Below are positions 17,053-63,914 of a stretch of DNA of 64,000 bases, one piece after another; position 1 is the first letter of the stretch; each line of letters opens with the position of its first letter. Below the pieces are notes generated by a model. That model had not been told where the DNA came from. It saw only the letters and a list, made by a program, of their open reading frames with translations, and did no database searches. The translations under genes were made by a program, and so were the position numbers. Source of the DNA: Clostridium saccharobutylicum DSM 13864 (GTDB lineage Bacteria > Bacillota > Clostridia > Clostridiales > Clostridiaceae). Location: contig NC_022571.1 in the NCBI RefSeq assembly GCF_000473995.1, forward strand, positions 4,681,416 to 4,745,415, read 5' to 3'.

Positions 17053-17342
17053 ATATAGATAAACAAACTAAGAGCTAAATTTAAACTTCGAAATATATTC
17101 TAACTAGAAAGAAGCTGTGTTCTTTTTTGGAGTGTTACATTTATAATTGAGCTGTAATCATTTCTTCAGTAGAAGTTGTCTAATTCTTACTTGTTCTCAA
17201 CTTGTTTGAGGAACATGTAGGAATTGATACAACTTCTGCTGATAGAAATCCACAGCCCAATTATATAGCAACCGAGAAAAAGAATATAGCTTCTTTCGTT
17301 AAATTACCACATAAGCCTAAATTCTAAATTGTTTATCTATAT
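17053..17342. repeat. 290-bp unit with 14-bp terminal inverted repeats around copy A
   Basis: ATATAGATAAACAA (17053-17066) is the exact reverse complement of 17329-17342. The left flank inside the repeat resembles the left flank of copy D (57891 onward). This gives the unit the shape of a non-autonomous mobile element, although no clear target-site duplication is seen. Confidence 0.55.
17107..17297. ncRNA. 191-nt structured element, copy A
   Basis: The whole sequence folds into one long interrupted hairpin with four nested helices: P1 (GAAAGAAGC with GCTTCTTTC at the ends), P2 (AATTGAGCTGT with ACAGCCCAATT), P3 (CAGTAGAAGTTGT with ACAACTTCTGCTG) and P4 (AATTCTTACTTG arm) capped by CTTGT. Copies B (53382) and C (63681) have the same length and keep the pairing with different bases. 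It may be a small RNA gene, a regulatory RNA or a palindromic mobile element; the sense strand is not known. Confidence 0.55.
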
Positions 17343-17442
17343 CGCAATCACCCTATTTTATTGCAATGACATACTCACGGTGCTATAATATTACATATTT
17401 GTATAGAGAAATTACAAAAATAAATATTAGGATGTGTAAGAA

Positions 17443-19296
17443 TTGCAAAATATGAAAACTAATTCAAGAGAAAAACCTATTAATTTTTTCTTTCCAATTG
17501 CATTTATATTAGGAATCGTTCCTTTAATTGTTCGCTTAACTTTTATAGAACCCGATTCTAATCTTGCCAAGCTATATGGCACTACAAAACGAAGTGATTT
17601 ATTTTCACAAAGAAAAGCTTTGTTTTTACTAATTTTTGCTATTATCTTGGTCGGAATTAGCGTTGTCTTCTTTAAAAAAATTTTTGACAAAAAAGATAAA
17701 ATAGTTAATTCTATTTTAATTTCATCAGGTGTATTTTTACTATTCACTGTAGCTTCTGCAATATTATCACCATATAAGCAACAGGCTTTTTATGGTATGT
17801 ATGATAGAGCTGAAGGTCTCATTACAATAGCCTGCTATATGATTATTTTTATCTATTCTATTTATACCTTCAAAACTACAGATAATTATAACTATATTGT
17901 TATTCCAATTCTAATCGTAGTTGCTATTAATTCATTTTTAGGTTTCTTTCAATATATAGGGCAAGACTTAATTAAAAGTGATCTAGGTAAGTTAATTGTT
18001 GTCCCTAGTGAATATACAAATATTTCTCTAACTTTGTCATATGAAGCTGGAAAGCTATATGGTACTTTATTTCATTATAACTATGTTGGTAGTTTTGTAG
18101 CGATTATATTACCAATATTATTTTGCATAGCTATATTTGAAAAGTATGAAATTGGATATAAACTATTTGCATGTATAGGAAGTTTACTTTCTATTTGGTT
18201 ATTACTTGGAAGTACATCTCGTGCTGGAATAATTGGTCTTGTTATGTCAATAATTTTTGGTGCGATTATATTTGGAAAATTAATTTTAAAGAGAAGAAAA
18301 CAATTTTTAATAGGTCTTGGTTGTATAATCATTGTAGCTATCATAGGTAACTTTGCAACTAAGGGAGCTATATTTGCAAGAATCCCTAGCTTAATATCCG
18401 ATTCTTTTAGTGTTTTTAAAGACACAAGTGATTTTGATTATAGAGAACATTCGGCTGTTAAAGATGTAAAAAATACTGATACGGGTGCAGAAATAACATT
18501 AGCTAATGATACTTTAAAAATTGGTTTTGAAAATGGTAATTATGTATTCAAAAATTCAAAAGATGAAATTATACAGTTCGTTAGAACCAATGATAAAGAT
18601 AAATCATATAAAACAGATGCACAAAATTTCTCAAATATTTCTTTACAATTTGCTAAACTTGCTAAAACATCAAGCAGAGCTGATGGTGTAATTGTAAATA
18701 TTGATAATAAAACTGGATTTATGTTCAAGTTAAAACCGAATAATACCATTCATTTAGTAGATTATAGTAGTGGAATTGATGTTGACGTTGTTTATCCTGA
18801 TACTATTGGATTTAAAGGTAAAGAAAAACTTGGTTCTATGAGAGGATATATTTGGGCAAGAGCACTTCCTTTATTAAAACAAAATATCTTAATTGGCAGT
18901 GGCCCTGATACTTTTATTTTCAGATTCCCTCAAAATGATTTAATTGGAAAATACTATGCTTATGATACAACTAATATGGTTGTCGATAAACCACATAATC
19001 TTTACCTACAAATAGCATTAAACGAAGGTGTAATTGCATTATTAGCATTTTTAGCTGTAATGATAATCTACATTGTTGACAGCATTAAATTATATGCTCT
19101 AAAAAATGAATATGATAAGGATCAAATTCTTGGTATAGCAACTTGCTTAGGTGTAATTGGATACTTGTTTGCTGGATTATTTAACGATTCAGTTGTAAGC
19201 GTTGCTCCAATATTTTGGATAGTTTTAGGTGTAGGAGTTGCAATTAACTTTATTAATAGACAAAAACTCAAAAAAATTTGTAATAAATCACTTTAA
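17443..19296 (+). CDS. O-antigen ligase/polymerase-like membrane protein (Wzy_C/WaaL family)
   Basis: This 617-residue polytopic protein has about twelve membrane helices. The Wzy_C-type signature appears late: MRGYIWARALPLL and GSGPDTF, then DKPHNLYLQIALNEG with the conserved His. Between about residues 320 and 470 lies a soluble, probably extracellular, insert rich in D, N, K and T that is not typical of short family members. Such proteins join or polymerise undecaprenyl-linked glycans on the outer face of the membrane. It may complete the pathway started by the genes at 14459-17016, but the 290-bp repeat unit stands between. Translation probably starts at TTG 17443, 10 bases after GGA of the RBS; ATG 17452 is too far from it. 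Confidence 0.8.
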   Translation: MQNMKTNSREKPINFFFPIAFILGIVPLIVRLTFIEPDSNLAKLYGTTKRSDLFSQRKALFLLIFAIILVGISVVFFKKIFDKKDKIVNSILISSGVFLLFTVASAILSPYKQQAFYGMYDRAEGLITIACYMIIFIYSIYTFKTTDNYNYIVIPILIVVAINSFLGFFQYIGQDLIKSDLGKLIVVPSEYTNISLTLSYEAGKLYGTLFHYNYVGSFVAIILPILFCIAIFEKYEIGYKLFACIGSLLSIWLLLGSTSRAGIIGLVMSIIFGAIIFGKLILKRRKQFLIGLGCIIIVAIIGNFATKGAIFARIPSLISDSFSVFKDTSDFDYREHSAVKDVKNTDTGAEITLANDTLKIGFENGNYVFKNSKDEIIQFVRTNDKDKSYKTDAQNFSNISLQFAKLAKTSSRADGVIVNIDNKTGFMFKLKPNNTIHLVDYSSGIDVDVVYPDTIGFKGKEKLGSMRGYIWARALPLLKQNILIGSGPDTFIFRFPQNDLIGKYYAYDTTNMVVDKPHNLYLQIALNEGVIALLAFLAVMIIYIVDSIKLYALKNEYDKDQILGIATCLGVIGYLFAGLFNDSVVSVAPIFWIVLGVGVAINFINRQKLKKICNKSL

Positions 19297-19317
19297 CATA
19301 AATAATAGTTAGACACT

Positions 19318-19366
19318 AAAAAATACTTCATATGGAAATCTTAAATTCCATATGAAGTATTTTTTT
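19318..19366. terminator. Bidirectional terminator between convergent genes
   Basis: A perfect 15-bp stem (19323-19337 with 19346-19360) is flanked by A-runs on the left and a T-run on the right, serving both the plus-strand gene ending at 19296 and the minus-strand gene ending at 19380. Confidence 0.85.
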
Positions 19367-19379
19367 GAAGTTTACACTA

Positions 19380-20597
19380 TTATCTTACCCATGCTCCATC
19401 AGATCCTAATCTATATCCACCAACATATGTGTCGTGTAACATAGCTCCTTTAGTTCCATCTGAGTATGGTTTTAAGTAATACCAAGTTCCATTCCAATCT
19501 TTAAACCAGCCAGTTTGCATTTTTCCTTGTTCATCCATGTGATACCAATTTCCGTTTATATTTTGCCAACCTGTTTTTCTAACTCCATCAAAACTTAAAT
19601 AATACCAATCACTTTCAAGTTCTAACCAACCAGTTTTCCTATTTCCATTTTCATCCAAATAGCATACTTGTCCATTTTGAATACTCCAACCATTTGCATT
19701 AACTACAGTTGTATCATCTGTAGATGTACTATCCGATGAAGTATTTGTTGATGATGAACTTCCTCTAGTTATATTTAGAGTATAAACTCTTTCATCATCA
19801 TCATTTGTGATTTTTACTTTAATTGTATTTTTTCCTTCATCTAAAGTTACTTTCTTTTCATAATCATCATCTTCATGTACTGCGCTATCATTAACTCTAA
19901 CTTTATAATCATGATCTTCTGGTTCAGCCATAACTTTTACATAAGAAACATCTTTTTTAACTTTTATATCATATGAAGTTGTTTCTTTATCAAAGTCAAA
20001 ATCAATATCATCTCCAGAATAAGTTAAAGTTAAATCATCTAGATAAATATCATCATAATCACTACTATCATTGTCATCATCATTATCATTATTATCATTA
20101 TTATTACCAGTATACTTTACCTTAATAGTGTAGTCATATAACTTATTTTCTTTATCACTATATTTGGGATTATCCTTATCTGGTTCTTCACTATATACTC
20201 TTACAGTTAGTTTAGTAGTACTAGAATCTAAGCTAATAGATTTATTTGCTTTTTGACCTTTACTAGAGCTTGAATCATTAGTAAATACTCTTACATACTT
20301 ATCATTAACTCCATCTATCTTAACCTTTATTTTTTTAGAATTGGTTTTAGCATAATATTGTATGTCATATTTCATATCATTTGAATCTACTTTATCATCT
20401 GAATCATAACCCTTATCATCATAACATCTAATAGTGCTACCGCTATTAGTTTCAAGTTTTAATGATGATAATTCACTACTATTAGTCTCTGCTGCATAAG
20501 CTGCCTTCATTCCTAAATTTAATTCTGTTGGCGCAAGTGTAACTGCTCCACTTACAGCTAATGCAAGTGCAACAATTTTAATTACATTTTTCTTCAT
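19380..20597 (-). CDS. Secreted cell-wall-binding protein with cadherin-like beta-sandwich domain
   Basis: The 405-residue protein has a signal peptide (hydrophobic core 5-22, AYAAE near 33-37). A first beta-rich region (about 40-165, LSSLKLETNSGSTIRCY) is followed by an Asp/Asn-rich linker (about 167-190). A cadherin-like beta-sandwich domain (about 190-280) starts YLDDLTLTYSG and ends NTIKVKITNDDDERVYTLNITRG. After a Ser/Thr linker, about five wall-binding repeats (GWLELESDWYYL, GWQNINGNWYHM, GWFKDWNGTWYYL) fill the C-terminus. The repeats should anchor it to wall polymer. A related domain plan is seen at 56428-57402. It probably works as an adhesin or wall-structure protein. ATG 20597 is preceded by a G-rich RBS. 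Confidence 0.85.
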   Translation of the reverse strand: MKKNVIKIVALALAVSGAVTLAPTELNLGMKAAYAAETNSSELSSLKLETNSGSTIRCYDDKGYDSDDKVDSNDMKYDIQYYAKTNSKKIKVKIDGVNDKYVRVFTNDSSSSKGQKANKSISLDSSTTKLTVRVYSEEPDKDNPKYSDKENKLYDYTIKVKYTGNNNDNNDNDDDNDSSDYDDIYLDDLTLTYSGDDIDFDFDKETTSYDIKVKKDVSYVKVMAEPEDHDYKVRVNDSAVHEDDDYEKKVTLDEGKNTIKVKITNDDDERVYTLNITRGSSSSTNTSSDSTSTDDTTVVNANGWSIQNGQVCYLDENGNRKTGWLELESDWYYLSFDGVRKTGWQNINGNWYHMDEQGKMQTGWFKDWNGTWYYLKPYSDGTKGAMLHDTYVGGYRLGSDGAWVR

Positions 20598-20787
20598 TTA
20601 TTCCTTCCCCCTATTTCTGAAAATAAAATGTTAATTCACATTTTATTTTGTATTTGATATATTAAAAAACTTTTAATATATCTTAACATTCCAATATGGT
20701 AATATATATTAAAATTTTCTTAATTTATAATAAATTTATCATTTAATATATAATACATATACTATATAATACATAAATTTTCTATAA

Positions 20788-20804
20788 TTTAGGTACTTTT
20801 TTAT
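20788..20804 (-). promoter_or_regulatory. Second occurrence of the shared 17-base word
   Basis: Identical to 947-963, about 190 bases upstream of the start codon at 20597. Function unknown. Confidence 0.25.
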
Positions 20805-20960
20805 TTTATGCATATAAAATACTATAAATAGATATAATTATCTTTTATTTTTTAATTTACATTATGTGAGTAAACTATTGTTCAAAATATAAACTCTTTA
20901 AGTATATTAGCAGAAACACACTTAATATCTTTTACATATTATTTATTTTATCAATATACC

Positions 20961-20996
20961 TAAAAAATGACTTCTGAAAAAATACAGAAGTCATTT
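20961..20996 (-). terminator. Terminator of the first three-gene surface operon
   Basis: The perfect 12-bp stem AAATGACTTCTG (20965-20976 with 20985-20996) is followed, on the minus strand, by a T-run. It lies about 45 bases after the stop at 21040. Confidence 0.85.
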
Positions 20997-21039
20997 GTTT
21001 AATTTGTATCTTATTTATAATACAACAGAATTGCTACTA

Positions 21040-22122
21040 TTATTTAGTAACTGTAAGTTTGTATGTGTTAAGTACTTTATAAGTTACACCAGACTCAGCA
21101 TCTTGTGAACGAACAATTTCTTTTATAACTATAACATTGCTAGCACCTGCATTTATGTCAATTGCATACATACCATCTTTATCTGCTGTTATATTAACAT
21201 CAGTTCCATCTTCATTTGTAGCATAGAAGTATGAATTATCATCAGATTTATTATCAATTGTAAATCTAAACATTCCATCTGCATTAGCTCTTGCGCTATA
21301 AGTATCATCTGATTTTTTAGTTATTTTATTATATCCACTAGCAGCATTTATTGCATAACTACTGCTACTCTTATGGTGTCCAGCACCTGATGAACCTGAT
21401 GATCTTGATGAACTTGATGAATTATTGCTTCCAGTAGTATTTGGTGTTTGTGATATACCTGATGAACTAAATCCTTTATCTGGAGTTGGGATATTATCAC
21501 CTGTAGCTTCACCACTTGCTGCAAATGTATAAACTACTCCGTTAATTGTAACTTGTCCAGTTTGCATTGCTCCTGATGCTGCTAAATAATATACTTTTCC
21601 ATCAACTTCAACAACACCAGTTTGCATTGCTCCTGATACACTTGTGAAGTACCAAGTACCATTATCATTTACCCAACCTGTCTTCATTGCTCCATTTGAA
21701 GCTGTGAAATACCAGTTACCGTTATAATTTACCCATCCAGTTTGCATTGCTCCTGATGCATTTGTATAGTACCAAGTACTTCCATCTAGTACCCAACCTG
21801 TCTTCATTGCTCCTGAAGCATTTGTATAGTACCAAGTGCTTCCATCTAGTACCCAACCTGTTTTCATAGCACCTGATGCATCTGCAAAATACCAAGCGCT
21901 TCCATCATTTATCCAACCTGTTTTCATGTATCCAGTTGAATCAAAATAATACCATTTTCCATCTATAGCTCTCCAGCCAGTAGAATATGAATCTCCTTCT
22001 GTATTCCACCAACCTGTAGAATTTTGCTTCCATGCTGCTGATGCTCCTACTGGAGATACTGTAGAGATTGCAGCAACTGTTAATGCAACTGCAACTAATT
22101 TTCTTAACTTTAGATTTTTCAT
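21040..22122 (-). CDS. Secreted cell-wall-binding repeat protein (operon copy 1, gene 3)
   Basis: The 360-residue protein has a signal peptide (1 to about 28, VGASAAW) followed by about nine wall-binding repeats of 20 residues (about 30-205). These have the pattern GW-x5-WYY-x5-GAMKT: for example GWVLDGSTWYYTNASGAMKT. A Ser/Gly-rich linker (about 207-252) leads to a C-terminal domain of about 105 residues (from SSSYAINAASGYNK) that is not recognised but looks beta-rich and lacks cysteine. It is the last gene of a three-gene operon whose layout is repeated at 26979-30697. The repeat region should bind wall polymers and the C-terminal domain probably carries the specific role. RBS AGGAGGGG precedes the ATG. 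Confidence 0.85.
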   Translation of the reverse strand: MKNLKLRKLVAVALTVAAISTVSPVGASAAWKQNSTGWWNTEGDSYSTGWRAIDGKWYYFDSTGYMKTGWINDGSAWYFADASGAMKTGWVLDGSTWYYTNASGAMKTGWVLDGSTWYYTNASGAMQTGWVNYNGNWYFTASNGAMKTGWVNDNGTWYFTSVSGAMQTGVVEVDGKVYYLAASGAMQTGQVTINGVVYTFAASGEATGDNIPTPDKGFSSSGISQTPNTTGSNNSSSSSRSSGSSGAGHHKSSSSYAINAASGYNKITKKSDDTYSARANADGMFRFTIDNKSDDNSYFYATNEDGTDVNITADKDGMYAIDINAGASNVIVIKEIVRSQDAESGVTYKVLNTYKLTVTK

Positions 22123-22137
22123 TTTTATATACCCCTC

Positions 22138-23592: not shown

Positions 23593-23675
23593 TATATATT
23601 AATGCCTCCTATTAATGCCTACCTATGCTGTTTATACTGATTAAATATAATTCTCCACTAATTGTAAAATTATAA

Positions 23676-24353: not shown

Positions 24354-24506
24354 TTTATTCTATCCCCTTTCAGATTATGTGTTTATATTTACACCTATAT
24401 AAAATATTGGTAAAATAATTAACTATTTAAACAATCATATGTTTATATTACCCTATTTCCAATAATATTACAATATATATCTCATATTTCTTCTTTGTAA
24501 TCATAG

Positions 24507-24515
24507 ATTATATCA
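24507..24515 (-). promoter_or_regulatory. Extended -10 promoter candidate for operon copy 1
   Basis: On the minus strand TGATATAAT is a consensus extended -10 element, about 155 bases upstream of the start at 24353. No good -35 is seen, which is normal for this promoter class. Confidence 0.45.
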
Positions 24516-24599
24516 CGGCTTTCATATGCTTATAGGTAAAATAATCCAATAGATTAATCTCCCCTCAAATACATAAACAAAACAACTTTTTATCTTCAG

Positions 24600-26787: not shown

Positions 26788-26823
26788 AACATTGTAATAT
26801 ATTACTATAATCTTGTATAGGTA

Positions 26824-51881: not shown

Positions 51882-51940
51882 AGACGCATTAAAGAAAATA
51901 ATAGGTTCAAAATGTCATGATTATTTTTTTGAATGTGCCT
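51882..51940. repeat. Short inverted-repeat element G3 in the leader of the wall-binding gene
   Basis: AGACGCATTAAAGAAAATAA and TTATTTTTTTGAATGTGCCT are approximate inverted ends around GGTTCAAAATGTCATGA, a core also present in G2 (57514 region). The right end stops 4 bases before AAAGGAG, the RBS of the gene at 51959. Confidence 0.5.
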
Positions 51941-51958
51941 AATAAAGGAGTATTTGAA

Positions 51959-53008
51959 ATGATAAAATCAAAGCTAAAAAGTCTGATAGCATTATCAGCA
52001 ATATCATTACTGACAATGGCAACTGTTCTTCCAACATCAGCTTCTGCTGCTTGGAAACAAGACTCTAATGGTTGGTGGAATACTGAAGGCGATTCATATT
52101 CTACAGGTTGGAGGTCTATTAATGGTGCTTGGTATTATTTTAATACAGATGGATATATGAAAACTGGTTGGTTAAACGACAATGGTACTTGGTATTATCT
52201 AAATGATTCCGGTTCTATGAATAACGGATGGGTAAACAGCAATGGCTCTTGGTATTACTTAGATCCTTCTTCAGGTGCTATGAAAACAGGATGGGCAAAC
52301 AATAATGGAACTTGGTATTACCTAGACCCTTCTTCAGGTGCTATGAAAACAGGATTAGTTCAAGTAGATAATAAAACATATTACTTAAATAACTCTGGTG
52401 CTATGCAAACTGGAAACATTACAATTAATGGTCAAAGTTATACTTTTGCTACAAGTGGCGAAAAATTAACTACAACTGCTTCAAGCACAAATAGTACAAG
52501 CAGTACTGCAACTGACACAACAACAACTTCTTCTGATTCTTCATCAAATTCTGGCAGTTCAAGATCAAGTTCTGGTGGATCAAGTGGTGGATCTAGCTCT
52601 AGCAGTTCAAGTAACTCAAGCAGTTCTAATTCATCATATAGTAATGTATTTGGTACATGGAAAGTTGCAAAGCGACTTGATTCAAATGCTACTTCACAAT
52701 TAAGTGCCTTAAAAATAAGTCTTGCAATTGGAGAAAATGTTACGATTTCTAGCAGTAAAATACACACAAGTATTGGTAATGTTAATAATCCAAAATTCTC
52801 ATCTAAGACATTAACTGCTTCAGCTTTTGCAGCTTCTTATCCTGATACATTTGCAAGTTTAGGTATAGATGCTGATAAAATTCAATGCGTTACTGTTTCT
52901 GGATCATTTGATGGAAGTAACGGCAGTGGATCTTTATTAGTTATAGATAACAATACATTATACGTATACGCAAAAGGAACTCTTTTCGAACTTGATAGAG
53001 TTTCATAG
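51959..53008 (+). CDS. Secreted cell-wall-binding repeat protein
   Basis: The 349-residue protein has a signal peptide (SLIALSAISLLTMATVLPTSASAAW), then a first repeat WKQDSNGWWNTEGDSYSTGW shared almost word for word with the protein at 21040. About seven repeats (to about 180) have the form GW-NDNGTWYYLNDSGS. A long Ser/Thr/Gly linker (about 182-240) precedes a C-terminal domain of about 110 residues (from NVFGTWKVAKRLDSN) with a SLAIGENVTISSSKIHTSIG segment. This tail has no counterpart among the other repeat proteins here. The start is ATG 51959, 8 bases after GGAG; an upstream in-frame ATG (51917) lies in element G3. Confidence 0.86.
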   Translation: MIKSKLKSLIALSAISLLTMATVLPTSASAAWKQDSNGWWNTEGDSYSTGWRSINGAWYYFNTDGYMKTGWLNDNGTWYYLNDSGSMNNGWVNSNGSWYYLDPSSGAMKTGWANNNGTWYYLDPSSGAMKTGLVQVDNKTYYLNNSGAMQTGNITINGQSYTFATSGEKLTTTASSTNSTSSTATDTTTTSSDSSSNSGSSRSSSGGSSGGSSSSSSSNSSSSNSSYSNVFGTWKVAKRLDSNATSQLSALKISLAIGENVTISSSKIHTSIGNVNNPKFSSKTLTASAFAASYPDTFASLGIDADKIQCVTVSGSFDGSNGSGSLLVIDNNTLYVYAKGTLFELDRVS

Positions 53009-53050
53009 AATTTAAAACTACTAAATAAACATTTATTATATAAAATAAAG

Positions 53051-53173
53051 AGCCTCTTAATGGTAAGTTAAATATATTTAAGTTTGTCATAAATATAGCG
53101 CTAAAGTTTAAAACTTTCAGTACTGTTTTAGGACAAGCAACAAATAAATAACTTTCCACTAAGAGGCTTTTTC
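53051..53173 (+). terminator. Branched terminator-like hairpin after the wall-binding gene
   Basis: AGCCTCTTAATGGTAAGTTA (53051-53070) pairs with 53149-53168 with two mismatches and is followed by TTTTTCT. The 78-base interior has its own stems (AAAGTTT with AAACTTT; TTGTC with GACAA). This is unusually elaborate for a terminator. Confidence 0.6.
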
Positions 53174-53381
53174 TAATTTATAAATGATAAAAATAGCTAA
53201 AGAAATTTACAAACTTATTCAAAATCTCTTATAGTTAGGCATATTCAAATAAATATTTGTAGATTTTGCCTATTCAGCTTACTAAAAATTATAGCTAAAA
53301 ATAAAAATTAGAAATAGAAACAAAAATGTATTCCTAATTTCGGTGATTTGTCACGTAATTCTAAATTCATCTCCAAACAAA

Positions 53382-53572
53382 GAAAGAAGCTGTATTCTTT
53401 TTCGGAGTGTTGCATTTATAATTGAGCTGTAATCATTTCTTCAGTAGAAATTGTTGCATTCTTGCTTGTCCTTAACTTGTTTAAGGAACATGCAGGAATA
53501 ATGACAACTTCTACTGTTAGAAATCCACAGCCTAATTATATAGCAACCGAGAAAAAGAATACAGCTTCTTTC
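53382..53572. ncRNA. 191-nt structured element, copy B
   Basis: It is the best-preserved copy: P1 has 21 uninterrupted pairs (GAAAGAAGCTGTATTCTTTT with its complement at the other end), and P2, P3 and P4 all form. It differs from copy A at many paired positions in both arms at once, for example TTGC/GCAG here against TTAC/GTAG in P4. Its right end is 20 bases from the stop of the CpsB gene. Confidence 0.6.
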
Positions 53573-53592
53573 GGTTAGTCAAGATAAAACCC

Positions 53593-54360
53593 TTATCTAC
53601 CGAAAAATGAAAATATAGATTTCTTTTCTTTTATTTTTTGGCCGCAGAATTCTATATCTTCGTTTAAAATAAGTCTTCTTGAACTTTCTCCAATTAATTC
53701 ACCATTTATTTTATTTTTAGCATTTGCTAAATCCACACCTTCAGAAATCCCTACAGATCTAGTTGTAGTATTATGAGCATCTGAACCTATAAAATTATAT
53801 ATTCCATTAGTAATTAATATTTCAGCTGTTTTTCTGACACTATCTCCAAATACTCCTTCTAAACTTCCTGCATTCATTTGAAATAAATACCCTTCATTAA
53901 TGAAATCATTAATAATTGAAGGTTTATTTATAATATATTTATATCTCTCTGGATGCGCTATTATAGGAACTATATTTCTAACTTGCAACTCATAAAGTGT
54001 ATCAAATAGATTTTGCTCTTGATTCCTCATTGAAAACTCAATAAGCATATATCTTGAATCATTTATAGTTCCAATATTTCCTTCTAAATAATCATTGATT
54101 ATATTATGCGTAAAATATACTTCTTGACCCGCATAAACTTCTATATTTATTCCTTCGTCATTTACAATAGAATTGATTTTTTCTACATGATCCTTAACTT
54201 CATTAATCTTTGCTTCTCCATATTCCATTAAATAATGGGGAGTTGCTACAATTTTCTTGGTACCGCTTTTTTCTGCAGCTATTAACATTTCTAATGTCAT
54301 TTCCATATTTTTAGATCCATCATCAATTCCAGGTATAATATGTGAATGAATATCTATCAT
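53593..54360 (-). CDS. cpsB: Protein-tyrosine phosphatase of the PHP type (CpsB/YwqE-like)
   Basis: The 255-residue protein starts IDIHSHIIPGIDDGS, with the metal-binding His pair, and has VATPHY, AGQEVYF, PIIAHPERY and GSDAHN, the whole PHP metal-site set of CpsB/CapC phosphatases. It removes phosphate from the C-terminal tyrosines of the CpsD kinase encoded just upstream and so controls chain length and export. The operon order is cpsC-cpsD-cpsB with short gaps (12 and 17 bases). Confidence 0.93.
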   Translation of the reverse strand: MIDIHSHIIPGIDDGSKNMEMTLEMLIAAEKSGTKKIVATPHYLMEYGEAKINEVKDHVEKINSIVNDEGINIEVYAGQEVYFTHNIINDYLEGNIGTINDSRYMLIEFSMRNQEQNLFDTLYELQVRNIVPIIAHPERYKYIINKPSIINDFINEGYLFQMNAGSLEGVFGDSVRKTAEILITNGIYNFIGSDAHNTTTRSVGISEGVDLANAKNKINGELIGESSRRLILNEDIEFCGQKIKEKKSIFSFFGR

Positions 54361-54377
54361 AAGATTACTCCTTGTTC

Positions 54378-55121
54378 TTATTTGTGTTTCTTTTTAGTTT
54401 TGGTTTCATCACCATCTTCATTAGATCCATAATAGTAATAATATTTACCTCTTGTGTTTTCCACTGCGTGTAATACACTACCTATTATGTTAGCACCAAC
54501 TTTAGTTAAAAGATTTTTAGCTTCAATTACTGATTCTCTTTTTGTTCTACCTGCCCTTGTAACAAGTATAGTTCCATCTACGTCTTTAGACAGAATTTGA
54601 GCATCTGTAACTGCTAAAAGTGGTGCACTATCTAGTATTATTATATCATATGTTTCTTTTAGCTTTTCTATTAAATTAACCATAGCCTTTGATGATAACA
54701 TTTCTGATGGATTTGGTGGTATCTTACCAGATGGAAGCATATCAAGATATTCATTACGACTTTGAACTACTTCTTCTAATTTTGCTTTTCCTATAAGTAC
54801 TTCTGAAAGACCTACTAAATTAGATATTTTAAAATTTTTATGTACTGATGGTTTTCTTAAATCACAATCTACAATTATTACCTTTTTCTCATTTTGAGCA
54901 AAAGATATTGCAAGATTACCAGATACTGTTGATTTTCCTTCAGCTGCTTCAGCACTTGTAACTACTATACTTCTAATTTCCTTATCAAATGATGAATACT
55001 GAATATTAGTTCTTAAAGTTCTATAAGCTTCTGCTGCTATTGACTTTGGTTTTTTTTCTACTACAAATCCTCTATATTGTTGATTTGCTACTGCGTTTTC
55101 TAATTTTTTTGCTGAAAACAT
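54378..55121 (-). CDS. cpsD: Tyrosine autokinase (CpsD/YwqD-like BY-kinase)
   Basis: The 247-residue protein has Walker A with GKST (62-65), Walker A' VIIVDCDLRKP (81-91) and Walker B IIILDSAP (160-167). A run of five tyrosines (227-231) near the C-terminus is the autophosphorylation site. The N-terminal RTLRTNIQYSS is the usual contact with the membrane activator. It forms a ring with the CpsC protein and cycles with the CpsB phosphatase to regulate polysaccharide polymerisation. RBS AAAGGAGG is strong. Confidence 0.95.
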   Translation of the reverse strand: MFSAKKLENAVANQQYRGFVVEKKPKSIAAEAYRTLRTNIQYSSFDKEIRSIVVTSAEAAEGKSTVSGNLAISFAQNEKKVIIVDCDLRKPSVHKNFKISNLVGLSEVLIGKAKLEEVVQSRNEYLDMLPSGKIPPNPSEMLSSKAMVNLIEKLKETYDIIILDSAPLLAVTDAQILSKDVDGTILVTRAGRTKRESVIEAKNLLTKVGANIIGSVLHAVENTRGKYYYYYGSNEDGDETKTKKKHK

Positions 55122-55133
55122 AACCTGCCTCCT

Positions 55134-55814
55134 TTAATTAAAATCATCAGGTATTGCTCCAACAACTGGCAATCCTAATATTTGTTCTACTTGCTCTTTT
55201 GTTTTAAATGTATTATCAACAAATTCTAATAAGAAAGCTAATCCTATACTGACCATAAGTCCAAGTAAAAACCCAATAGCAATGTTTAATTTCTTATTAG
55301 GACTAACTGGATTTTCTGGCATTTTTACACTTTCTATTACTTTAACATTTCCATTTGGTATAAGTTCAGTAGATTCTTTTATAAATTGATTAGTAATTGA
55401 ATCAACTAAATCTCTAGATAATGTTTTATCTTTACTTATATATTTTATTTCTAATATTTGAGTATTTGCACTTGGCGTAACTGTTAAATTTTTAAGTACT
55501 TCCTGTGAAGTAACATTTAAGTCAGCATTATTAATAGCGTTTTCAACCAAATCGTTAGTTGTTATAACTCCTGCATATGTCTTTAATAATTGTTGATACA
55601 TTTGAATATCACTATTATTGTAATTTTTATCTTGAGTTTGACTATTTTCTTTTCCTATGAATAACTTAGTACTAGCTTCATATTTAGGTGCAATTATGAA
55701 GAAACTTAAAATTCCAGCAATTAAAGTTGTAATTACTGTTATTGAAAGTATCATTTTCCATCTCTTATTTAATATATCTACTATATCTTCAAGTCTTACA
55801 ATCTCTTCATTCAT
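55134..55814 (-). CDS. cpsC: Chain-length regulator / kinase activator (CpsC/YveK-like, Wzz family)
   Basis: The 226-residue protein has two membrane helices (about 18-38 and 178-198) around an outside Wzz domain starting APKYEASTKLFIG. The motif before the second helix is ENPVSPNKKLNIAIG, typical of the family. The short inner tail (DNTFKTKEQVEQILGLPVVGAIPDD) activates the CpsD kinase, which is a separate protein as usual in Firmicutes. It leads the three-gene operon. Confidence 0.94.
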   Translation of the reverse strand: MNEEIVRLEDIVDILNKRWKMILSITVITTLIAGILSFFIIAPKYEASTKLFIGKENSQTQDKNYNNSDIQMYQQLLKTYAGVITTNDLVENAINNADLNVTSQEVLKNLTVTPSANTQILEIKYISKDKTLSRDLVDSITNQFIKESTELIPNGNVKVIESVKMPENPVSPNKKLNIAIGFLLGLMVSIGLAFLLEFVDNTFKTKEQVEQILGLPVVGAIPDDFN

Positions 55815-56337: not shown

Positions 56338-56369
56338 GATAATAGTATTTAATTACTTAATCAATAAAT

Positions 56370-56419
56370 ATAAAAAGAGGCTATTGTCTTATGATAAAAT
56401 CATTTTTCAATACCTCTTC
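56370..56419 (-). terminator. Terminator of the surface protein gene ending at 56428
   Basis: On the minus strand AAGAGGTATTG (56418-56408) pairs with CAATAGCCTCTT (56386-56375, one bulge) and is followed by TTTATA. Confidence 0.65.
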
Positions 56420-56427
56420 TTAGTTTT

Positions 56428-57402: not shown

Positions 57403-57489
57403 AAATTTTACCTCCACTACTACGCTTATACTTTTCGTCTATATTTTATCATTTTTATCACCGTTCGTATATTAACATATTATTAATTT

Positions 57490-57573
57490 AGGCACATGAA
57501 AGAAAATAACAATTCCAAAATGTCATGATGAAAAATAAACTTGGCAGATGGACTTGTTATTTATTTTCATATG
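57490..57573. repeat. Short inverted-repeat element G2
   Basis: AGGCACATGAAAGAAAATAA and TTATTTATTTTCATATG are inverted ends (ATGAAA-AAAATAACAA-TCC core) about 84 bp apart around CCAAAATGTCATGATG. It lies about 90 bases upstream of the surface gene starting at 57402. Confidence 0.55.
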
Positions 57574-57890
57574 ATTTAAATTATACATTGCATAAATAAA
57601 CTCAATATGAACTAAATTTAAAATTATGTAGTTACTTACAGAAATCATGTATATATATTCTAATTATAAGTCCAGTTCTACTTGTTATATCTATATATAA
57701 TGCTAAACATTAAATATTAATTAAAAATAATATTTTTCACTCAACAAATGGTATAATGTACAATGTTGATTTTAATTTAGAATATAGAGTAAATAATTAC
57801 AAACAACCTACTGGACTTTTTAATATTTGTTTTATATATGAATTTATAACAATTTGCTTGTTATAAAATTTTGTTTAATCACAATCTCCT

Positions 57891-57995
57891 ATAGATAAAG
57901 AAACTACAAATTAGATCTAAACTTTAAAATATATTCAATACTAGAAAGAAGCTGTATTCTTTCGGCAAATTACATCACAAGTCTAAATAAAAAGG
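57891..57995. repeat. Collapsed copy (D) of the structured element
   Basis: The left flank ATAGATAAAGAAACTA...CTAAACTTTAAAATATATTC and the end GAAAGAAGCTGTATTCTTT are as in copies A and B. The sequence then jumps directly to CGGCAAATTACATCACAAG, the right flank. About 170 bases of the hairpin are gone, as expected from deletion across a palindrome. Confidence 0.55.
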
Positions 57996-58006
57996 AGTCA
58001 TTAAAT

Positions 58007-59098
58007 GTGGAAAATTTAAAATTTACTAGAGACGATACAAGTATCGCTAAAGGCATTGCAATTATATGTATGTTTATTCATCACTTATTCACGTTTCCTA
58101 ATAGAATTAAAGGAAGTTCTGAATTTATTTCTTTATTTCAATTTAATGGTAATAATATTGAGTATTGGTTTGGGCAATATGGCAGAATCTGCGTTGCCAT
58201 GTTTTTATTTTTTAGTGGATTCGGCATATATAAACAGTTTGCTAAAAACAATGCTCATGTTAGTTCCAATGTTTTTAAAAGACTTAAAAATTTATATGTT
58301 AACTATTGGACAGTATTCATAATTTTCATACCAATTAGTTTCTTTACAGGTTACAGAGAATTTAATCTTGCAGAGTTTTTTGATAATTTTGTAGGATATA
58401 GAAGTACATATGATGGAGAATGGTGGTTCTTCGAATTATATGTTTTAGTTATCGCAACATTCCCTGTAACAGTAAAATTAATTAAAAACAGTTCTGTAAC
58501 TTCATTTTTTAAAATTATGGTACTAGCTGTATTATCACGTACAGTTTATGTTTCTCTTAAAGATGTCCCACTATTTAACACATTTGCTAGAACTATCTTT
58601 TATAGTGAATTAAACTTGTTATTAACATGGCTACCTTGTTTCTTAATGGGGATAACATTTGCTAAATTTGATTTATTTCCTAAAATAAGCCAAAAATTTA
58701 AAGATAACAAATTAGATAATATTTTCGTATATTTATTGATTTGCCTAGTTCTAATGTATGTAAGATTTAGAAACGATGATGTTATTGATTTTGACTATTT
58801 AATAGCACCACTATATATTCTTTGTAGTGTAAATATTGTTAAAATACTGAAATTAAATAAGCTTTTTGTTTATTTAGGCAAACATAGTTCAAATATGTGG
58901 CTGGTACATAGCTTCTTCTGCTATCAATATTTTCAATGGTGGGTATATCTACCTAAAATATCAATCTTCGTGTTACTATGGCTAATTATAATAACAATTG
59001 CTACTTCAATCGCTATAGAATTTATTAAAAAACAAGTTACTAAATTATGTTCAGGTGAATTTAAACTTTCATATATGAATAGAGCTCTTAGAGATTAG
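58007..59098 (+). CDS. Membrane acyltransferase family 3 protein (OafA-like)
   Basis: The 363-residue protein has about ten membrane helices. The N-terminal helix ends with ICMFIHHLFTFPNRI, holding the catalytic His region of acyltransferase 3 enzymes, and GRICVAMFLFFSGFGIYKQ and GEWWFFELYV follow as usual. Members O-acetylate or otherwise acylate surface glycans or peptidoglycan. It starts at GTG 58007, 9 bases after GGAG; an ATG at 58005 is in another frame and stops after four codons. It is a single gene between surface genes; the acceptor is unknown. Confidence 0.87.
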   Translation: MENLKFTRDDTSIAKGIAIICMFIHHLFTFPNRIKGSSEFISLFQFNGNNIEYWFGQYGRICVAMFLFFSGFGIYKQFAKNNAHVSSNVFKRLKNLYVNYWTVFIIFIPISFFTGYREFNLAEFFDNFVGYRSTYDGEWWFFELYVLVIATFPVTVKLIKNSSVTSFFKIMVLAVLSRTVYVSLKDVPLFNTFARTIFYSELNLLLTWLPCFLMGITFAKFDLFPKISQKFKDNKLDNIFVYLLICLVLMYVRFRNDDVIDFDYLIAPLYILCSVNIVKILKLNKLFVYLGKHSSNMWLVHSFFCYQYFQWWVYLPKISIFVLLWLIIITIATSIAIEFIKKQVTKLCSGEFKLSYMNRALRD

Positions 59099-59102
59099 AG
59101 TT

Positions 59103-59183
59103 AAGTGGTAGATTACCGAAAGTACATGTATTTTTTTGCTCAATTGCTATAAAATAAGACTGTGAATTTCTAAAAGTAGAATT
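59103..59183 (+). repeat. Half copy (E) of the structured element, inverted
   Basis: CAATTGCTATAAAATAAG, then ACTGTGAATTTCTAAAAGTAG correspond to the complement of the right half of copy A (GGTTGCTATATAATTGGG, CTGTGGATTTCTATCAGCAG). It begins with ATTACCGAAAG, as in other copies. The apical hairpin and other arm are missing. It starts a few bases after the stop of the acyltransferase gene. Confidence 0.5.
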
Positions 59184-59189
59184 TCCAAT

Positions 59190-59234
59190 AAAAAATAAAC
59201 TACCCATCAAGCTAATAAATTAGCTTGATGGGTA
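59190..59234 (-). terminator. Terminator of the small secreted protein gene
   Basis: A perfect 16-bp stem (59201-59216 with 59219-59234) is followed on the minus strand by TTTATTTTTTATT. It probably also stops plus-strand transcripts from the acyltransferase gene. Confidence 0.85.
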
Positions 59235-59301
59235 TGAGTTAAATCACTAATAAAAAATTCTTAAATACTACTTATATGTATAATTAATGTTTAGTCAGAT
59301 T

Positions 59302-59910
59302 TTATCTGTTATACCACATTACATTGTTAACTTGTGTTTGCCAACCTTGGCAAGCCCAGTGATCCCAGCCTCTTCTTCCATCATTTTCAAAATATGATCC
59401 CTTAGGTTGTTGTCTTGAGAATACCCAAACTCCAAATGTAGTTCCACCATATTGATATGTAGCAAAATATTTTACTCCAGAAATATTATGTTTGTAGTTT
59501 TGTGATAAATCCATAACAACTACATTATATTGACCGTGAGCTGCATAGAATGCACTTTCCATTAATCCCTTACAAAATGCTGCATTTTGCCCATTAAAAT
59601 TTCTAGCGTTTATTGCTGAAATTATTCTGTTAGCAATACCTAATACATCAATATTTACATTAGCATTAAAATTAGCACTTCCACTAAAACTGCTACCGCC
59701 AGATGCTGCTAAACTAGCTCCATAAATACTGTCTTTGCTTGTACCATCAGTGCCTTTAATACTATCAGGAGAATCTGTTGTTATACCATTACTTACTTTA
59801 TAAGTTGCATCTGTAGTAGCTGCAAATGCTGCAGTTGGCATGCCTATAGTACCTGCTAAAATTCCTAAAGATAGGCATAATGTTATTACTCTTGTTCTGA
59901 TTTTTTTCAT
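59302..59910 (-). CDS. Small secreted protein of unknown family
   Basis: The 202-residue protein has a signal peptide (VITLCLSLGILAGTIGMPTAAFAAT, cut near 30). A Ser/Gly/Asp-rich segment (about 35-85) is followed by a compact domain (about 86-202) with INARNFNGQNAAFCKGLMES, AHGQYNVVVMDLSQNY, YGGTTFGVWVFSR and a C-terminal WDHWACQGWQTQVNNVMWYN. Two cysteines (about 113 and 189) could form a disulfide, which is notable for an exported clostridial protein. The aromatic-rich end suggests sugar or wall contact. I cannot assign a family; a bacteriocin-like or matrix role is only a guess. RBS AGGAG precedes the ATG. Confidence 0.75.
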   Translation of the reverse strand: MKKIRTRVITLCLSLGILAGTIGMPTAAFAATTDATYKVSNGITTDSPDSIKGTDGTSKDSIYGASLAASGGSSFSGSANFNANVNIDVLGIANRIISAINARNFNGQNAAFCKGLMESAFYAAHGQYNVVVMDLSQNYKHNISGVKYFATYQYGGTTFGVWVFSRQQPKGSYFENDGRRGWDHWACQGWQTQVNNVMWYNR

Positions 59911-59940
59911 TTTTAAACACTCCTAAAATATTTATATATT

Positions 59941-59985
59941 TTAAATTAATATTTTAATTAAGCACATTATATAAATGCTTAAAAT
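59941..59985 (-). promoter_or_regulatory. Leader hairpin upstream of the small secreted protein gene
   Basis: AAATTAATATTTTAA-TTA-AGCA pairs with TGCTTAAAATATTAATTT, with a 3-base bulge. It lies about 30 bases upstream of the start codon and could lie in the 5' leader. Confidence 0.35.
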
Positions 59986-60427
59986 ATTAATTTAATTGCA
60001 CAGTAAGTTTTTTATATATGCTTGTCCTATATTGTGGATAATGAAATATACTTATATTGATCAATATATTGTGAAAATGATAATTCATTTAAATCTGCTC
60101 ACAAACTATTCTTAATATAAATGAATTAATTTTATTAAGAATAAACTTGATTAATAATAAATAAATTTCATCAATTAGGACTTATATACTATATTAATAA
60201 TATAGAGCAATAACTGTGCCACATTGTTTTATTGTATTATTGGCTAGGTCGAAATAATTATTTAATAAATAATACAAAACATGTCCTAAAACTGCACTCT
60301 TTATGTTTTATATGTTGTACTATTTTAGTTGATTGTACTATTTTATTACATACTTGGTAAACTTAATGCAATAATTATATAATATAGAATACATGTTATT
60401 GTGAATTTAACTTGTTATTAACCTAAA

Positions 60428-60480
60428 AATTATATAAGCACTTTAAAATAGAACAATTATTTTAAAGTGCTTATATAATT
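60428..60480 (-). terminator. Terminator of the YibE/F-like gene
   Basis: A perfect 23-bp stem (60428-60450 with 60458-60480) closes a 7-base loop; the minus strand continues with TTTTTAGG. It lies 40 bases after the stop at 60520. Confidence 0.8.
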
Positions 60481-60519
60481 TAAAAAATCAGTATCTTTAT
60501 TGCCCATTTCATACAAATA

Positions 60520-61707
60520 TTATATAAAATCAGAACTTTGCTTTCCTTGAAGTAATTTTGCTGCAATAGCAGAAACAATCGGTACTGTAAAAATAACTGC
60601 TAAACTACCACAAACAGCATTAACAATATCAATTGTAATGCCATTGGAGTTGAACAATTGCTTAAACTGTACTTGATAAGAATACATAAGAATAAAAGAA
60701 AAAATGGACTCACCTAGAAATGCTAGAATAAGAGTATTACTCATAGTACCCATCATATCCCTTCCAATATTCATACCAGATCGGAATAGTTCATTAAAAC
60801 AAGCATTCTGCTTTTGCTTATGAAGCTCATTTATTGATGTAGCTATAGAAATAGCAATATCCATTACAGCTCCTAGCGAAGCTATAATAACTCCTGTAAA
60901 TAAAAGATCTTTTACCTGCAGCTTACTTTGACCAGCAATGTTAAGCAATGCATCTGTATCTGAAGATGTGTAACCAGATATTCCTAGAATTTTACTAAAA
61001 ACAAGCATAATAATAACCGACACAATTACACCTGCAACTGTTCCTAATACAGCGGACAAAGTTTTTCGATCAAATCCCCCAACTAGAAATAATGTTACGC
61101 AAGAAGTTATAACAACAAGGAAAATAGTTGCAGCAACAGCCGATATACCATAGAAAAGTAATGGAACAAAAATGAATATTACTGTTGTCAGAGTAAATAT
61201 AATCCCTAGCACAGAATGAAAACCACGCCAACCACCTACTAAGCAGATTGCTCCAATAAAAATACCTATAAGTACAAGTAAAGGAACAACACGATATGGT
61301 GAGAACATATAAACATTTATCTGTGATTTATCACCAGTAGATGTATTTACAGACACAACAATCTCTTGGCCATTATGAAGAATAAAATTGGTATCATAAT
61401 TCAGAGCATTATTAACTTGAAAAGTCTGTCCTTTATATTGTCCACTTTCTATAAGTACGTTAACCATTTGTCTCCCAATATATAACCCTGAGAAACCTGA
61501 AGGATTTATTACTTGTTCATCAATTGATATAACCTTACCTTTTTCGTAATGCATTTCTCCGCCTGCTCCTGAACTATATGGATTATAAATTGGCGTATGC
61601 GAACTGAAATTAACAGCTATTACAATATAAGCAACTAAAACAGCAATTGGTATAATAATTTTACTGCATATTTTAATAGCTGAAATCCTATCTAATTTTA
61701 GCTTCAT
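60520..61707 (-). CDS. YibE/F family membrane protein
   Basis: The 395-residue protein has one N-terminal helix (about 13-33), an outside beta-rich segment (about 45-130, with GKVISIDEQV and GQTFQVNNAL), and seven to eight C-terminal helices. TGVIIASLGAVMDIAISIATSI and GRDMMGTMSNTLILAFLG are the signature of the YibE/F family. Its function is not firmly known; it is found in Firmicutes and Actinobacteria. It stands alone with its own terminator next to a secreted phosphatase gene. Confidence 0.88.
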   Translation of the reverse strand: MKLKLDRISAIKICSKIIIPIAVLVAYIVIAVNFSSHTPIYNPYSSGAGGEMHYEKGKVISIDEQVINPSGFSGLYIGRQMVNVLIESGQYKGQTFQVNNALNYDTNFILHNGQEIVVSVNTSTGDKSQINVYMFSPYRVVPLLVLIGIFIGAICLVGGWRGFHSVLGIIFTLTTVIFIFVPLLFYGISAVAATIFLVVITSCVTLFLVGGFDRKTLSAVLGTVAGVIVSVIIMLVFSKILGISGYTSSDTDALLNIAGQSKLQVKDLLFTGVIIASLGAVMDIAISIATSINELHKQKQNACFNELFRSGMNIGRDMMGTMSNTLILAFLGESIFSFILMYSYQVQFKQLFNSNGITIDIVNAVCGSLAVIFTVPIVSAIAAKLLQGKQSSDFI

Positions 61708-61788
61708 TTTATTTCTCCCGTTTCTATACTTCCACTATACAATAGCAAAGTAATTTTATTTAACCACATTGAGATATTTTATATAGCT

Positions 61789-61826
61789 AACAAACAGTCC
61801 ATCAAATATGGACAGGACTGTTTGTT
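61789..61826 (-). terminator. Hairpin after the phosphatase gene
   Basis: A perfect 12-bp stem AACAAACAGTCC (61789-61800 with 61815-61826) lies about 27 bases after the stop at 61853. The following U-tract is poor, so termination may be partial. Confidence 0.55.
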
Positions 61827-61852
61827 ATTCACTAAAATATATTTATCTTTCA

Positions 61853-63511
61853 TTAGTTCTTTGTAATTGTATAGCTGTCAATTAAAGATTGATTCTCAAC
61901 TTTAAAATCAGTTGTTGCATAAGTTTTTATTTTAAATGTATTATCAGTAAAACTTACGTAAGAATACGATGGAACATATCCTTGCCATCCAACAACGCTA
62001 AATGAATGATCTGCACTTCCTCCAACTGTATCATTACTTCCAGTGTTGAAGTCATAATATTTACTTCCTGTACCAGTGTCAAGTGTAAAATAAACTGTTC
62101 CTTTTGGATTAGTTACACTATTTGGATATTCTTTTCTTGCATAAGTAGCATTTGGATTTGTGGTCCCTGGTGCAGATTCATTCCCAATATTCTTTAAAGT
62201 TTCAGGAGTTCCAGTATTAGGCTCAACAACATTTCCATTTAGCATTTGTGCAGTACGAGTATAGTAGTGATCATGCCCTTGTAATACAACATCGATATTA
62301 TATTTATCCATCATCTTTGTCCAAGTATTACGTATTGTTAAAGCAGGATCTTCAATTTCATTTTTAGTATTGTGATTAGCTTCACTATATGCAGATTGAT
62401 GCCATGTAGCCACTTTCCATTTTGCATTAGGATTAGCTTTAATAGCTTGTGCTATAAATTGATCATGATCAGCAGTACCATAATTATTCGCATCTAATAC
62501 CAAGAAAAGTACTGGACCAGCAGTGAACCAGTAGTCACCGTCATTTCCATATTTAGTAGAGCCAAGCTTGCTTATGTTTGGCTGATTGTAATGATATCCA
62601 TAATATTCACCCATTTGGTGATCATGATTACCACAAAATTCAGCTAAAGGCATACTTTGAATATAATTTACTGCTGAGTCAGGATTAAAGAAGTCTCTAT
62701 ATTGGTACCATTGTCCATCAGATGAATTTGAAGGTTGTATCAAGTAATTGTAGTCATTAACTTGATCTCCCATTGTAAAAAGAAAGTTTAAATCTTTATT
62801 TTGATTCACTAACTTAAGCATGTTTTGCCAAGCTGTTTTATCATCATTTAAATTCTTATGCCCACCGGTAGCACTAGATTTAGCAGTCCCCTTAGAATTA
62901 TCAAATGCACCAATTTGTGGATCGCCAAAAGCAGCAAAGCTTACTTTATCCGTAGATAATGTACTAATACTATACACCGGACTCCAATTTCCTTGTCCAT
63001 CACTTACAGAATATGAATACTTAGTATTCGGAGTTAATTCTTTTACGGTCACTTTATTTGAATATTCGCCAGTTGGAGTATCTGACACACTTTTCCCATT
63101 AAACACATTGTCTCGATAATTCGAAGGATCACCTACCCCATTAGTATAAGGAAGAACTGTACAATCTTGCTTAATAGATTGTGTAACTTTTACAGTACTC
63201 TGAGTTGCATCATGAATATCTGCCGAATTTGGAAATTGTGTTCCATTCATATCAGATGTACGTGCAATTTTTATTTGTGTCTTTCCAGAACTCTGAGTGA
63301 ACCAAGCAAAATCAAGTTCTTTTGGATCCGAACCAACATTTGCATTAATATTATAGCCTCCTGTTACCTTAGGCAATGAAAATCCTTCAATACCAGATGA
63401 ATCCATTACTTCTGCGTTAACATTTTCCACAAAATGCAAACAAGAAGTAGTAGCGATAATTGTGCCTACAGCAATTGGAATAATAAATTTAGCTTTCTTA
63501 CTAATTTTCAT
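61853..63511 (-). CDS. Secreted purple-acid-phosphatase-like metallophosphoesterase
   Basis: The 552-residue protein has a signal peptide (IIPIAVGTIIATTSCLHFVENVNA). An N-terminal fibronectin-like domain (about 60-185, ending LTPNTKYSYSVSDGQGNWSP) is typical of purple acid phosphatases. The catalytic domain has FGDPQ (D197), GDQVND (248-253), GNHDH (294-298), TWHQSAYS and QGHDHYYTR, the five metal-binding blocks. It would release phosphate from organic esters outside the cell. The N-terminal Cys in TTSCLHF may suggest lipidation but the lipobox is imperfect. RBS AAGGTGG precedes the ATG. Confidence 0.92.
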   Translation of the reverse strand: MKISKKAKFIIPIAVGTIIATTSCLHFVENVNAEVMDSSGIEGFSLPKVTGGYNINANVGSDPKELDFAWFTQSSGKTQIKIARTSDMNGTQFPNSADIHDATQSTVKVTQSIKQDCTVLPYTNGVGDPSNYRDNVFNGKSVSDTPTGEYSNKVTVKELTPNTKYSYSVSDGQGNWSPVYSISTLSTDKVSFAAFGDPQIGAFDNSKGTAKSSATGGHKNLNDDKTAWQNMLKLVNQNKDLNFLFTMGDQVNDYNYLIQPSNSSDGQWYQYRDFFNPDSAVNYIQSMPLAEFCGNHDHQMGEYYGYHYNQPNISKLGSTKYGNDGDYWFTAGPVLFLVLDANNYGTADHDQFIAQAIKANPNAKWKVATWHQSAYSEANHNTKNEIEDPALTIRNTWTKMMDKYNIDVVLQGHDHYYTRTAQMLNGNVVEPNTGTPETLKNIGNESAPGTTNPNATYARKEYPNSVTNPKGTVYFTLDTGTGSKYYDFNTGSNDTVGGSADHSFSVVGWQGYVPSYSYVSFTDNTFKIKTYATTDFKVENQSLIDSYTITKN

Positions 63512-63914
63512 ATAATATTACCACCTTAATAAATATTTTCCTAATATACTAAATTTATCACTACTACTTTAAATGACAGTTAAGTCATGGTTAATTTTAC
63601 TTTAAATTGTATATTTTATATAAAACATAGATATCTAAACTATAATTTAGACTTATTCTTTAAAATATAATCATGAATTGGAAATAAATGGTACACTTTT
63701 GTGGAGTGTTAAATTGAGAAAAGGACTGTAGTATTTCTTCAGTATAAGTTGTTCTATTCTTGCTTGTCCTTAACTTGTTTAAGGAATATGCATGAATGGA
63801 ACAAATTATGCTGTTAGAAATCCACAGTCCTTTTCTATAGTAACCGAAACAAAAGAGCACCATTTCTTTCGGTTAGCGATCACATAACTTTAAGTTACAA
63901 GTTATGTCTCTATA
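63512..63914. other. Gene-free region with structured element copy C
   Basis: Besides the element (63681-63870) and a small hairpin CATAACTT/AAGTTATG (63883-63906), nothing is seen. Open frames inside the element are by-products of its palindrome. Confidence 0.8.
63681..63870. ncRNA. 190-nt structured element, copy C
   Basis: The outer helix P1 has a different sequence from copies A and B (AAATGGT with ACCATTT, CTTTTGT with ACAAAAG) but pairs equally well. P2 is AGAAAAGGACTGT with its exact complement instead of AATTGAGCTGT. P3 has ATAA/TTAT instead of AGAA/TTCT. Conserved single-stranded words are GGAGTGTT, TTTCTTCAGTA, AGAAATCCACAG and AACCGA. It lies directly after the chemotaxis-receptor gene end on the minus strand. 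Confidence 0.6.

Follow-up and report, generated by a model that had tools for sequence, protein, structure and literature searches.

The three hairpins of the analysed window, a 64,000-nt stretch of the Clostridium saccharobutylicum DSM 13864 genome, appear to be copies of an IS630-type palindromic MITE of approximately 284 bp that is retained where it is able to end a transcript; we put the probability of this reading at roughly 0.78. The copy number, the structure, one TA duplication, the insertion-sequence ends in relatives, the bias of placement and orientation, and the small number of ordinary terminators were computed directly. The first-pass annotation had regarded the hairpin mainly as a selected RNA structure and had named, as an alternative, a mobile palindrome with arms maintained by gene conversion. 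We judge that this alternative was right, the gene conversion being one candidate cause of the arm matching.

A covariance model trained on 82 copies, drawn from six genomes, recovered exactly the three cores given in Table 1, each on both strands; copies A and B were in its training set and copy C was not. No fourth place in the window was found with this model at E<=0.01. The positions and lengths first proposed for the three copies were thus reproduced, by sequence and by the model, and so was the common hairpin: each copy folds to one long hairpin on either strand, with -81 to -96 kcal/mol over 225-226 nt. The element had been described as multicopy and 191 nt long. The first part holds, with at least 145 places in its own genome, but the 191-nt palindrome is only the core of a longer element of 284-285 bp with the termini TAGATAAAC...GTTTATCTA. 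Similarity among copies extends about 45 nt to each side of the core, up to TAGATAAAC and GTTTATCTA, which form terminal inverted repeats in copies A and C and across copies. Copies A and C span from TAGAT to CTA, and TA adjoins three of their four ends. Inspection of the sequence places this TA at 17054-17055 and 17340-17341 for copy A and at 63913-63914 (the gene side) for copy C, which has CA on the opposite end. The far arm of copy B is lost or unrecognisable. No open reading frame of 80 aa or more was found inside the three window copies.

Table 1. Copies of the element and adjoining genes in the window. The strand of a copy is given for the sense direction in which most copies lie behind a gene.
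Feature	Coordinates	Strand	Core	Basis and remarks
Copy A, whole element, 284 bp	17056..17339	(-)	17107-17297	Ends from sequence, core from covariance model
Copy B	53382..53599	(-)	53382-53572	Core and shortened gene-side end finishing TAGATAA (sense strand)
Copy C, whole element, 285 bp	63628..63912	(-)	63681-63870	
CpsB/CapC family gene ahead of copy B	53593..54360	(-)		Pfam PF19567, E 3e-60
3' end of 589-codon open frame leaving the window (to 65684)	63915..64000	(-)		ORF reading
Glycosyltransferase gene upstream of copy A	15880..17016	(+)		Pfam PF00534; direction that of the strand read in the first-pass annotation; exceptional placement
Wzy_C (O-antigen ligase family) open frame beyond copy A	17443..19296	(+)		Pfam PF04932

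The stop codon of the CpsB/CapC gene falls inside the end of copy B, and that of the 589-codon frame lies immediately before the TA of copy C. Copy A departs from the usual placement behind a gene. The strand on which the hairpin was first described is the reverse of the transcript of the adjoining gene, copy A excepted. The surroundings of copies A and B (14447-19296 and 51917-55814) contain surface-polysaccharide genes (glycosyltransferase, Wzy_C, CpsB/CapC) and a choline-binding-repeat protein.

The first-pass annotation had suggested a covariance-model search of the host and of other Clostridium genomes. In the own genome (G000, a single contig of 5.1 Mb), the model found at least 145 distinct places (150 rows minus five opposite-strand duplicates), and 83 of the 145 places listed lie beyond 3.5 Mb. 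A DNA similarity search of the same genome gave 74 matches, with many places matched on both strands. The 5' end pattern, with up to three mismatches, occurs at 116 places in G000, compared with none for the reversed control, and some of these places enclose shorter or different insides. With the same model, under stricter filters and with few candidates scored per genome, 19 of 68 genomes of the genus and 16 of 147 genomes of the order matched, the latter all within one of 42 genera. A pattern search named Clostridium beijerinckii HUN142, C. uliginosum, C. chromiireducens, and Clostridium sp. LS among the holders. In one relative, the spread is uneven: contig C1 of G034 has 12 copies in 1-400000 and two in 400001-671097, with the model and thresholds used.

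Among the 145 places listed in G000, there are 16 neighbouring pairs at most 1 kb apart, where about four are expected. The two-copy loci are mostly places where two genes converge and a separate copy follows each of them. A composite element made of divergent copy pairs was considered and rejected; several two-copy loci exist, but their spacers share only other repeats. Carriage by a phage or plasmid was likewise rejected, as one copy matched nothing in either collection and the pattern was absent from viral contigs. The hairpin had been said to match no RNA family, and indeed no Rfam match was found in the window at the Rfam cut-offs, the best score below them being that of MIR8007 (48.2 bits vs 195). 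With nothing but weak hairpin look-alikes below the cut-off, and with copies too many and too dispersed, a new Rfam-type RNA was dismissed, as was the 6S-like long hairpin suggested earlier, which is ill-suited to at least 145 dispersed copies.

Evidence for mobility comes from relatives. At one clean empty site in the close pair G034 and G008 (92% over aligned blocks), a copy is present in G008 and absent from G034, with flanks that fit exactly with a TA duplication; this was one of six sites examined, and the other five were not clean. Two element-to-element junctions also pass through TA. Furthermore, G059 holds a 1,196-bp IS630-family insertion sequence, running from TAGATATCCAA to TTGTTTATCTA with TA on each side. 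Its two frames, 184 and 212 codons long, overlap and match the domains HTH_33 and HTH_29, and DDE_3, and the NCBIfam model transpos_IS630 matches both, the first below and the second above the cut-off. A MITE copy adjoins this insertion sequence and is joined to it via TA. The likeness of the MITE arms to the ends of the insertion sequence goes past the outer 11 bases: 48 arms scored 12.1 on average, compared with 7.1 when the inner part was shuffled and -0.5 when everything was shuffled. The last 32 bp of the insertion sequence recur at 91-94% in G008, G034 and G059. In G034, three pieces 82% alike to it lie at contig ends and stop about 25 bp short of TTGGATATCTA; next to two of the three, across TA, is a MITE-like end. 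The identification of this IS630 relative raises confidence in the mobile reading and slightly lowers its novelty. The element therefore does match a known transposon end-structure, a result that the first-pass annotation had listed as contrary to its selected RNA structure.

G000 itself retains three decayed pieces of the insertion sequence at 71-75%, together with short end or 28-bp matches. The catalytic domain of IS630, DDE_3, gave no match in G000; pieces of it are present in three of the seven first genomes and seven of the 12 further genomes. Given the decayed pieces and the lack of a DDE_3 match, current movement in the own genome would have to be considered unproven. Six near-identical copies (98-99.9%) of another IS630-family element, of approximately 1.18 kb, occur in G071 (L209, L214, L217, L219, L222 and L223); they do not have the ends of the MITE family. 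Palindromes near gene 3' ends also recall REP-like sequences mobilised by a Y1 (RAYT) transposase. However, the ends are of the IS630 type, and Y1_Tnp has no match in G000 while five of 14 control genomes do match, so that this explanation is extremely improbable.

Several variants were observed. A recurrent one, seen in G000 and G008, is enlarged close to the hairpin tip by about 50 bases, GCTCAC..GAGAAAGTTC and its complement (L162-L167 in G000; L139:14984-15277 and L130:17939-18196 in G008); these bases, present in both species, are possibly a second, nested palindromic repeat. Short elements of about 106-190 bp in G000 (L157, L158, L160 and L161) have the same ends and the basal hairpin only, with arms that still match. 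At the identical insertion point, L130:17939-18196 of G008 and its counterpart in G034 share their flanks but differ in subtype, as though the ends had been retained and the interior swapped.

The compensatory changes reported for the three copies are substantiated by the larger alignment. It comprises 82 of the 86 listed copies (L020:1501-1676, L050, L062 and L080 are absent), after exclusion of copies below 80 bits and of loci L025, L048, L053, L064, L068, L081 and L083. At least one compensated change was observed in 50 of the 62 consensus pairs, and pairing is seen in 95.1% of cells. The covariation score, 0.415, is far above those of 500 shuffles (0.139, sd 0.004) and of slid partners (at most 0.082). 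The tree of the 82 copies has 216 direct switches from one Watson-Crick pair to another. Of the single changes from Watson-Crick pairs, read on the gene-sense strand, 79 led to G·U, 117 to A·C and 82 to other states; for G·U vs A·C, p is 0.008 by a plain count that ignores shared descent. In 38 close comparisons, the numbers were 47, 96 and 58, respectively, and at eight orthologous loci, where the folds of both sequences entered the count, there were 24 G·U and 25 A·C. Since the excess of A·C is seen on the tree and in the close comparisons and is nearly absent at the orthologous loci, mutation alone may not explain it; the opposite strand, as RNA or as single-stranded DNA, may be the folding one.

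Selection of a gene-sense RNA should favour G·U, and A·C is not below G·U on that strand, which argues against such selection. The covariation is real, but its grain differs from what selection of a gene-sense RNA would leave. One could still suppose that a structured RNA of the 3' untranslated region is selected at each locus, as a regulator, an RNase target or a stabiliser of the mRNA, and that mobility is a side effect. The fixed orientation behind stop codons and the strand-specific conservation of unpaired words would fit this, whereas the G·U count and the ends in common with an insertion sequence would not. Nine orthologous loci were compared (five close pairs, e32k, e32.5k, e125.2k and L076/L062). 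In the five close pairs, the core differs by 2.6-4.3%, the preceding gene by 2.6-5.9%, and the DNA behind the core by 2.6-4.7% (the four that align). No compensated change was found in these five pairs, by a count that uses the fold of each sequence and so leans to pairs intact in that sequence. Because these cores diverge like their surroundings and without compensation, they appear to be old single copies under little selection, and the arms must then be matched mainly in moving lineages. At e32k and e32.5k, the divergence of the core lies between that of the gene and that of the downstream DNA. The core of e125.2k differs by 38%, is probably of another subtype, and was left out of the compensation count. 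L076/L062 is different: with 7% divergence in the core, 31-36% in the arms and 27% downstream, and with compensated changes, it looks as if it were locally selected, which supports the 3' RNA explanation and counts against a MITE-only reading. Overall, we consider a locus-by-locus selected RNA improbable, and as the main reading of the family it is not supported, given the TA duplication, the IS630 ends, the G·U and A·C counts, and the uncompensated close orthologues.

Another process that could match the arms without selection on structure is quasi-palindrome correction, in which one arm is copied from the other during replication or repair; it is compatible with a MITE. The direct Watson-Crick switches without preference for G·U would be expected from it, and double changes fall in adjacent runs (24 vs 11.5, sd 3.0), a pattern that would result from arm-to-arm copying or from subtype exchange. 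Exchange could thus produce the runs equally well. The conserved unpaired words are accompanied by conserved mismatches and loops, which copying should erase, and the five close orthologue pairs have no compensated change. Correction of this kind is a doubtful explanation.

In six genomes, the gene-side neighbour has the expected direction for 81 of 94 copies. A stop codon lies within 90 nt on the gene side in 68 of the 94, on the other side in 10, and on both in seven, and for copies between two genes of one direction the ratio is 38 to 11; the gene calls for these counts are plain open frames. In a set of 126 copies, of which at least one is counted twice (L044 = A31987), the 5' end could be read in 82, and a long frame ends nearby in 62 of those. 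The stop codon is at -40 to +29 relative to the first base of the element in 56 of these 62. The end of the element supplies a stop in each of three frames, and at many loci, the element itself provides the stop codon of the gene. About a quarter of copies, including copy A, are away from stop codons.

Ordinary terminators were sought by a crude scan for a simple hairpin and a T-run. None was found between the stop and the core at 71 loci, and one locus had a terminator within 120 nt behind the core. Among the controls, which were restricted to two of the six genomes (G034 and G008), 117 of 581 genes had one (p 1e-5 for 1/71 vs 117/581), as did 19 of 600 random windows. A laxer scan gave two and nine of 71 loci, 157 control genes and 87 windows; a stricter one gave none and none, 78 and nine, respectively. 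The hairpin may replace the terminator of the gene, and that it ends transcripts is inferred, indirectly, from the scarcity of ordinary terminators.

Whether the elements are aimed at gene ends or retained there was approached through shared and young copies. Of the 14 copies of G034 examined for synteny, 13 could be mapped; all 13 were counted as shared, and all are in the usual orientation. Of the 29 copies of G008, 12 are shared (10 in the usual orientation), 12 are unmappable, and five, at four sites, are missing from G034. The usual orientation is found at one of four sites absent from the sister species vs 13 of 13 shared (p 0.006). One of the four G008-only sites carries another subtype in G034, so that its youth is uncertain, and among the pairs counted as shared at least one (G008 273046) resembles two different subtypes. 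On these small numbers, the counts favour retention. An enzyme or partner that prefers gene 3' ends, at stops or terminator hairpins, would leave selection a minor role in placement; the narrow range of stop positions, tighter than tolerance alone requires, and one young copy directly behind a terminator-like hairpin speak for such aiming, and EFAR elements reportedly target stem-loops. The orientation of the sister-absent copies speaks against it, and we regard aimed insertion as rather unlikely.

The most probable explanation of these properties is that the element is a non-autonomous palindromic transposon belonging to an IS630-family insertion sequence, as its terminal repeats and TA duplication suggest; we infer that it was moved by the IS630 enzyme and that it was then retained rather than aimed. 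Almost all of it is a paired arm. The arms would change together because each moving lineage must keep them matched, possibly through recognition by the enzyme, through single-strand folding during movement, or through copying of one arm from the other. Copies survive for the most part downstream of stop codons and in a single orientation; there, the end of the element gives stops in three frames and the hairpin probably substitutes for the terminator of the gene. More tentatively, the transposon could be a portable transcript end, combining insertion at TA, three-frame stops and a terminator-replacing hairpin, and hence kept only one way at stops; this is possible, yet on balance we doubt it. 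In this tentative reading, a further hint comes from the gene-sense strand, where A·C is in excess (as G·U is on its complement): it may be one particular strand that folds during movement.

Similar repeats have been described in other bacteria. RUP of Streptococcus pneumoniae (107 bp) is linked to IS630-Spn1 (PMC2229807), and the present element resembles it in being a MITE with a TA target and ends in common with an IS630-family element, the same arrangement as that of RUP and IS630-Spn1 in the available part of that account. It differs in its length of 284 bp, its single long covarying hairpin, and its one orientation behind stops; no orientation bias at stops is stated for RUP in the text available from PMC2229807. 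ERIC of enterobacteria (127 bp), according to the same partial account, is a long imperfect palindrome with TA ends that is cotranscribed with genes, and in Yersinia its orientation bears on the decay of mRNA (PMC2229807). The present element shares the long imperfect palindrome and the TA ends, but by the description available it is set apart by another host, twice the length, and the tie to an IS630 element. SPRITE of S. pneumoniae is described, in the accessible text, as a small mobile hairpin resembling an intrinsic terminator (PMC10969869); judged by that description, our hairpin is distinct, being about 190 nt long and unlike a canonical terminator. The Efa-1 and Ype repeats of E. faecalis and Y. 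pestis, as far as the available descriptions go, are like the present family structured, intergenic, and found preferentially at gene 3' ends (PMC1590033, PMC2267715), whereas Efa-1 is described there as two adjacent stem-loops and ours is one long hairpin with a TA duplication. Clop-1 of C. perfringens and Clot-1 of C. tetani are listed as repeat families in PMC2267715 and are known here by that description. Among the literature matches listed, no Clostridium account of the MITE family was found, and the available text of PMC10969869 does not use "clostridi".

The family is thus a large and real one, undescribed in the searchable literature, of the known kind of IS630-type palindromic MITEs, and it is distinguished by its long covarying hairpin and by a one-way placement at stop codons, where it apparently stands in for a terminator. 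Its very strong covariation indicates that such a signal can arise from a mobile palindrome and that it does not, on its own, demonstrate a functional RNA. In many bacteria, short palindromic repeats accumulate at the 3' ends of genes, which raises the question of whether insertion is aimed at such sites or survival is limited to them. With more than 100 copies per genome, a fixed orientation, an insertion-sequence relative, and both filled and empty sites among close species, this family is suited to that question, and the laboratory hosts it has, Clostridium beijerinckii for example, make both readings testable. If the transposon were indeed a portable transcript end, well over a hundred of the 3' ends of a genome would be transposon-made.
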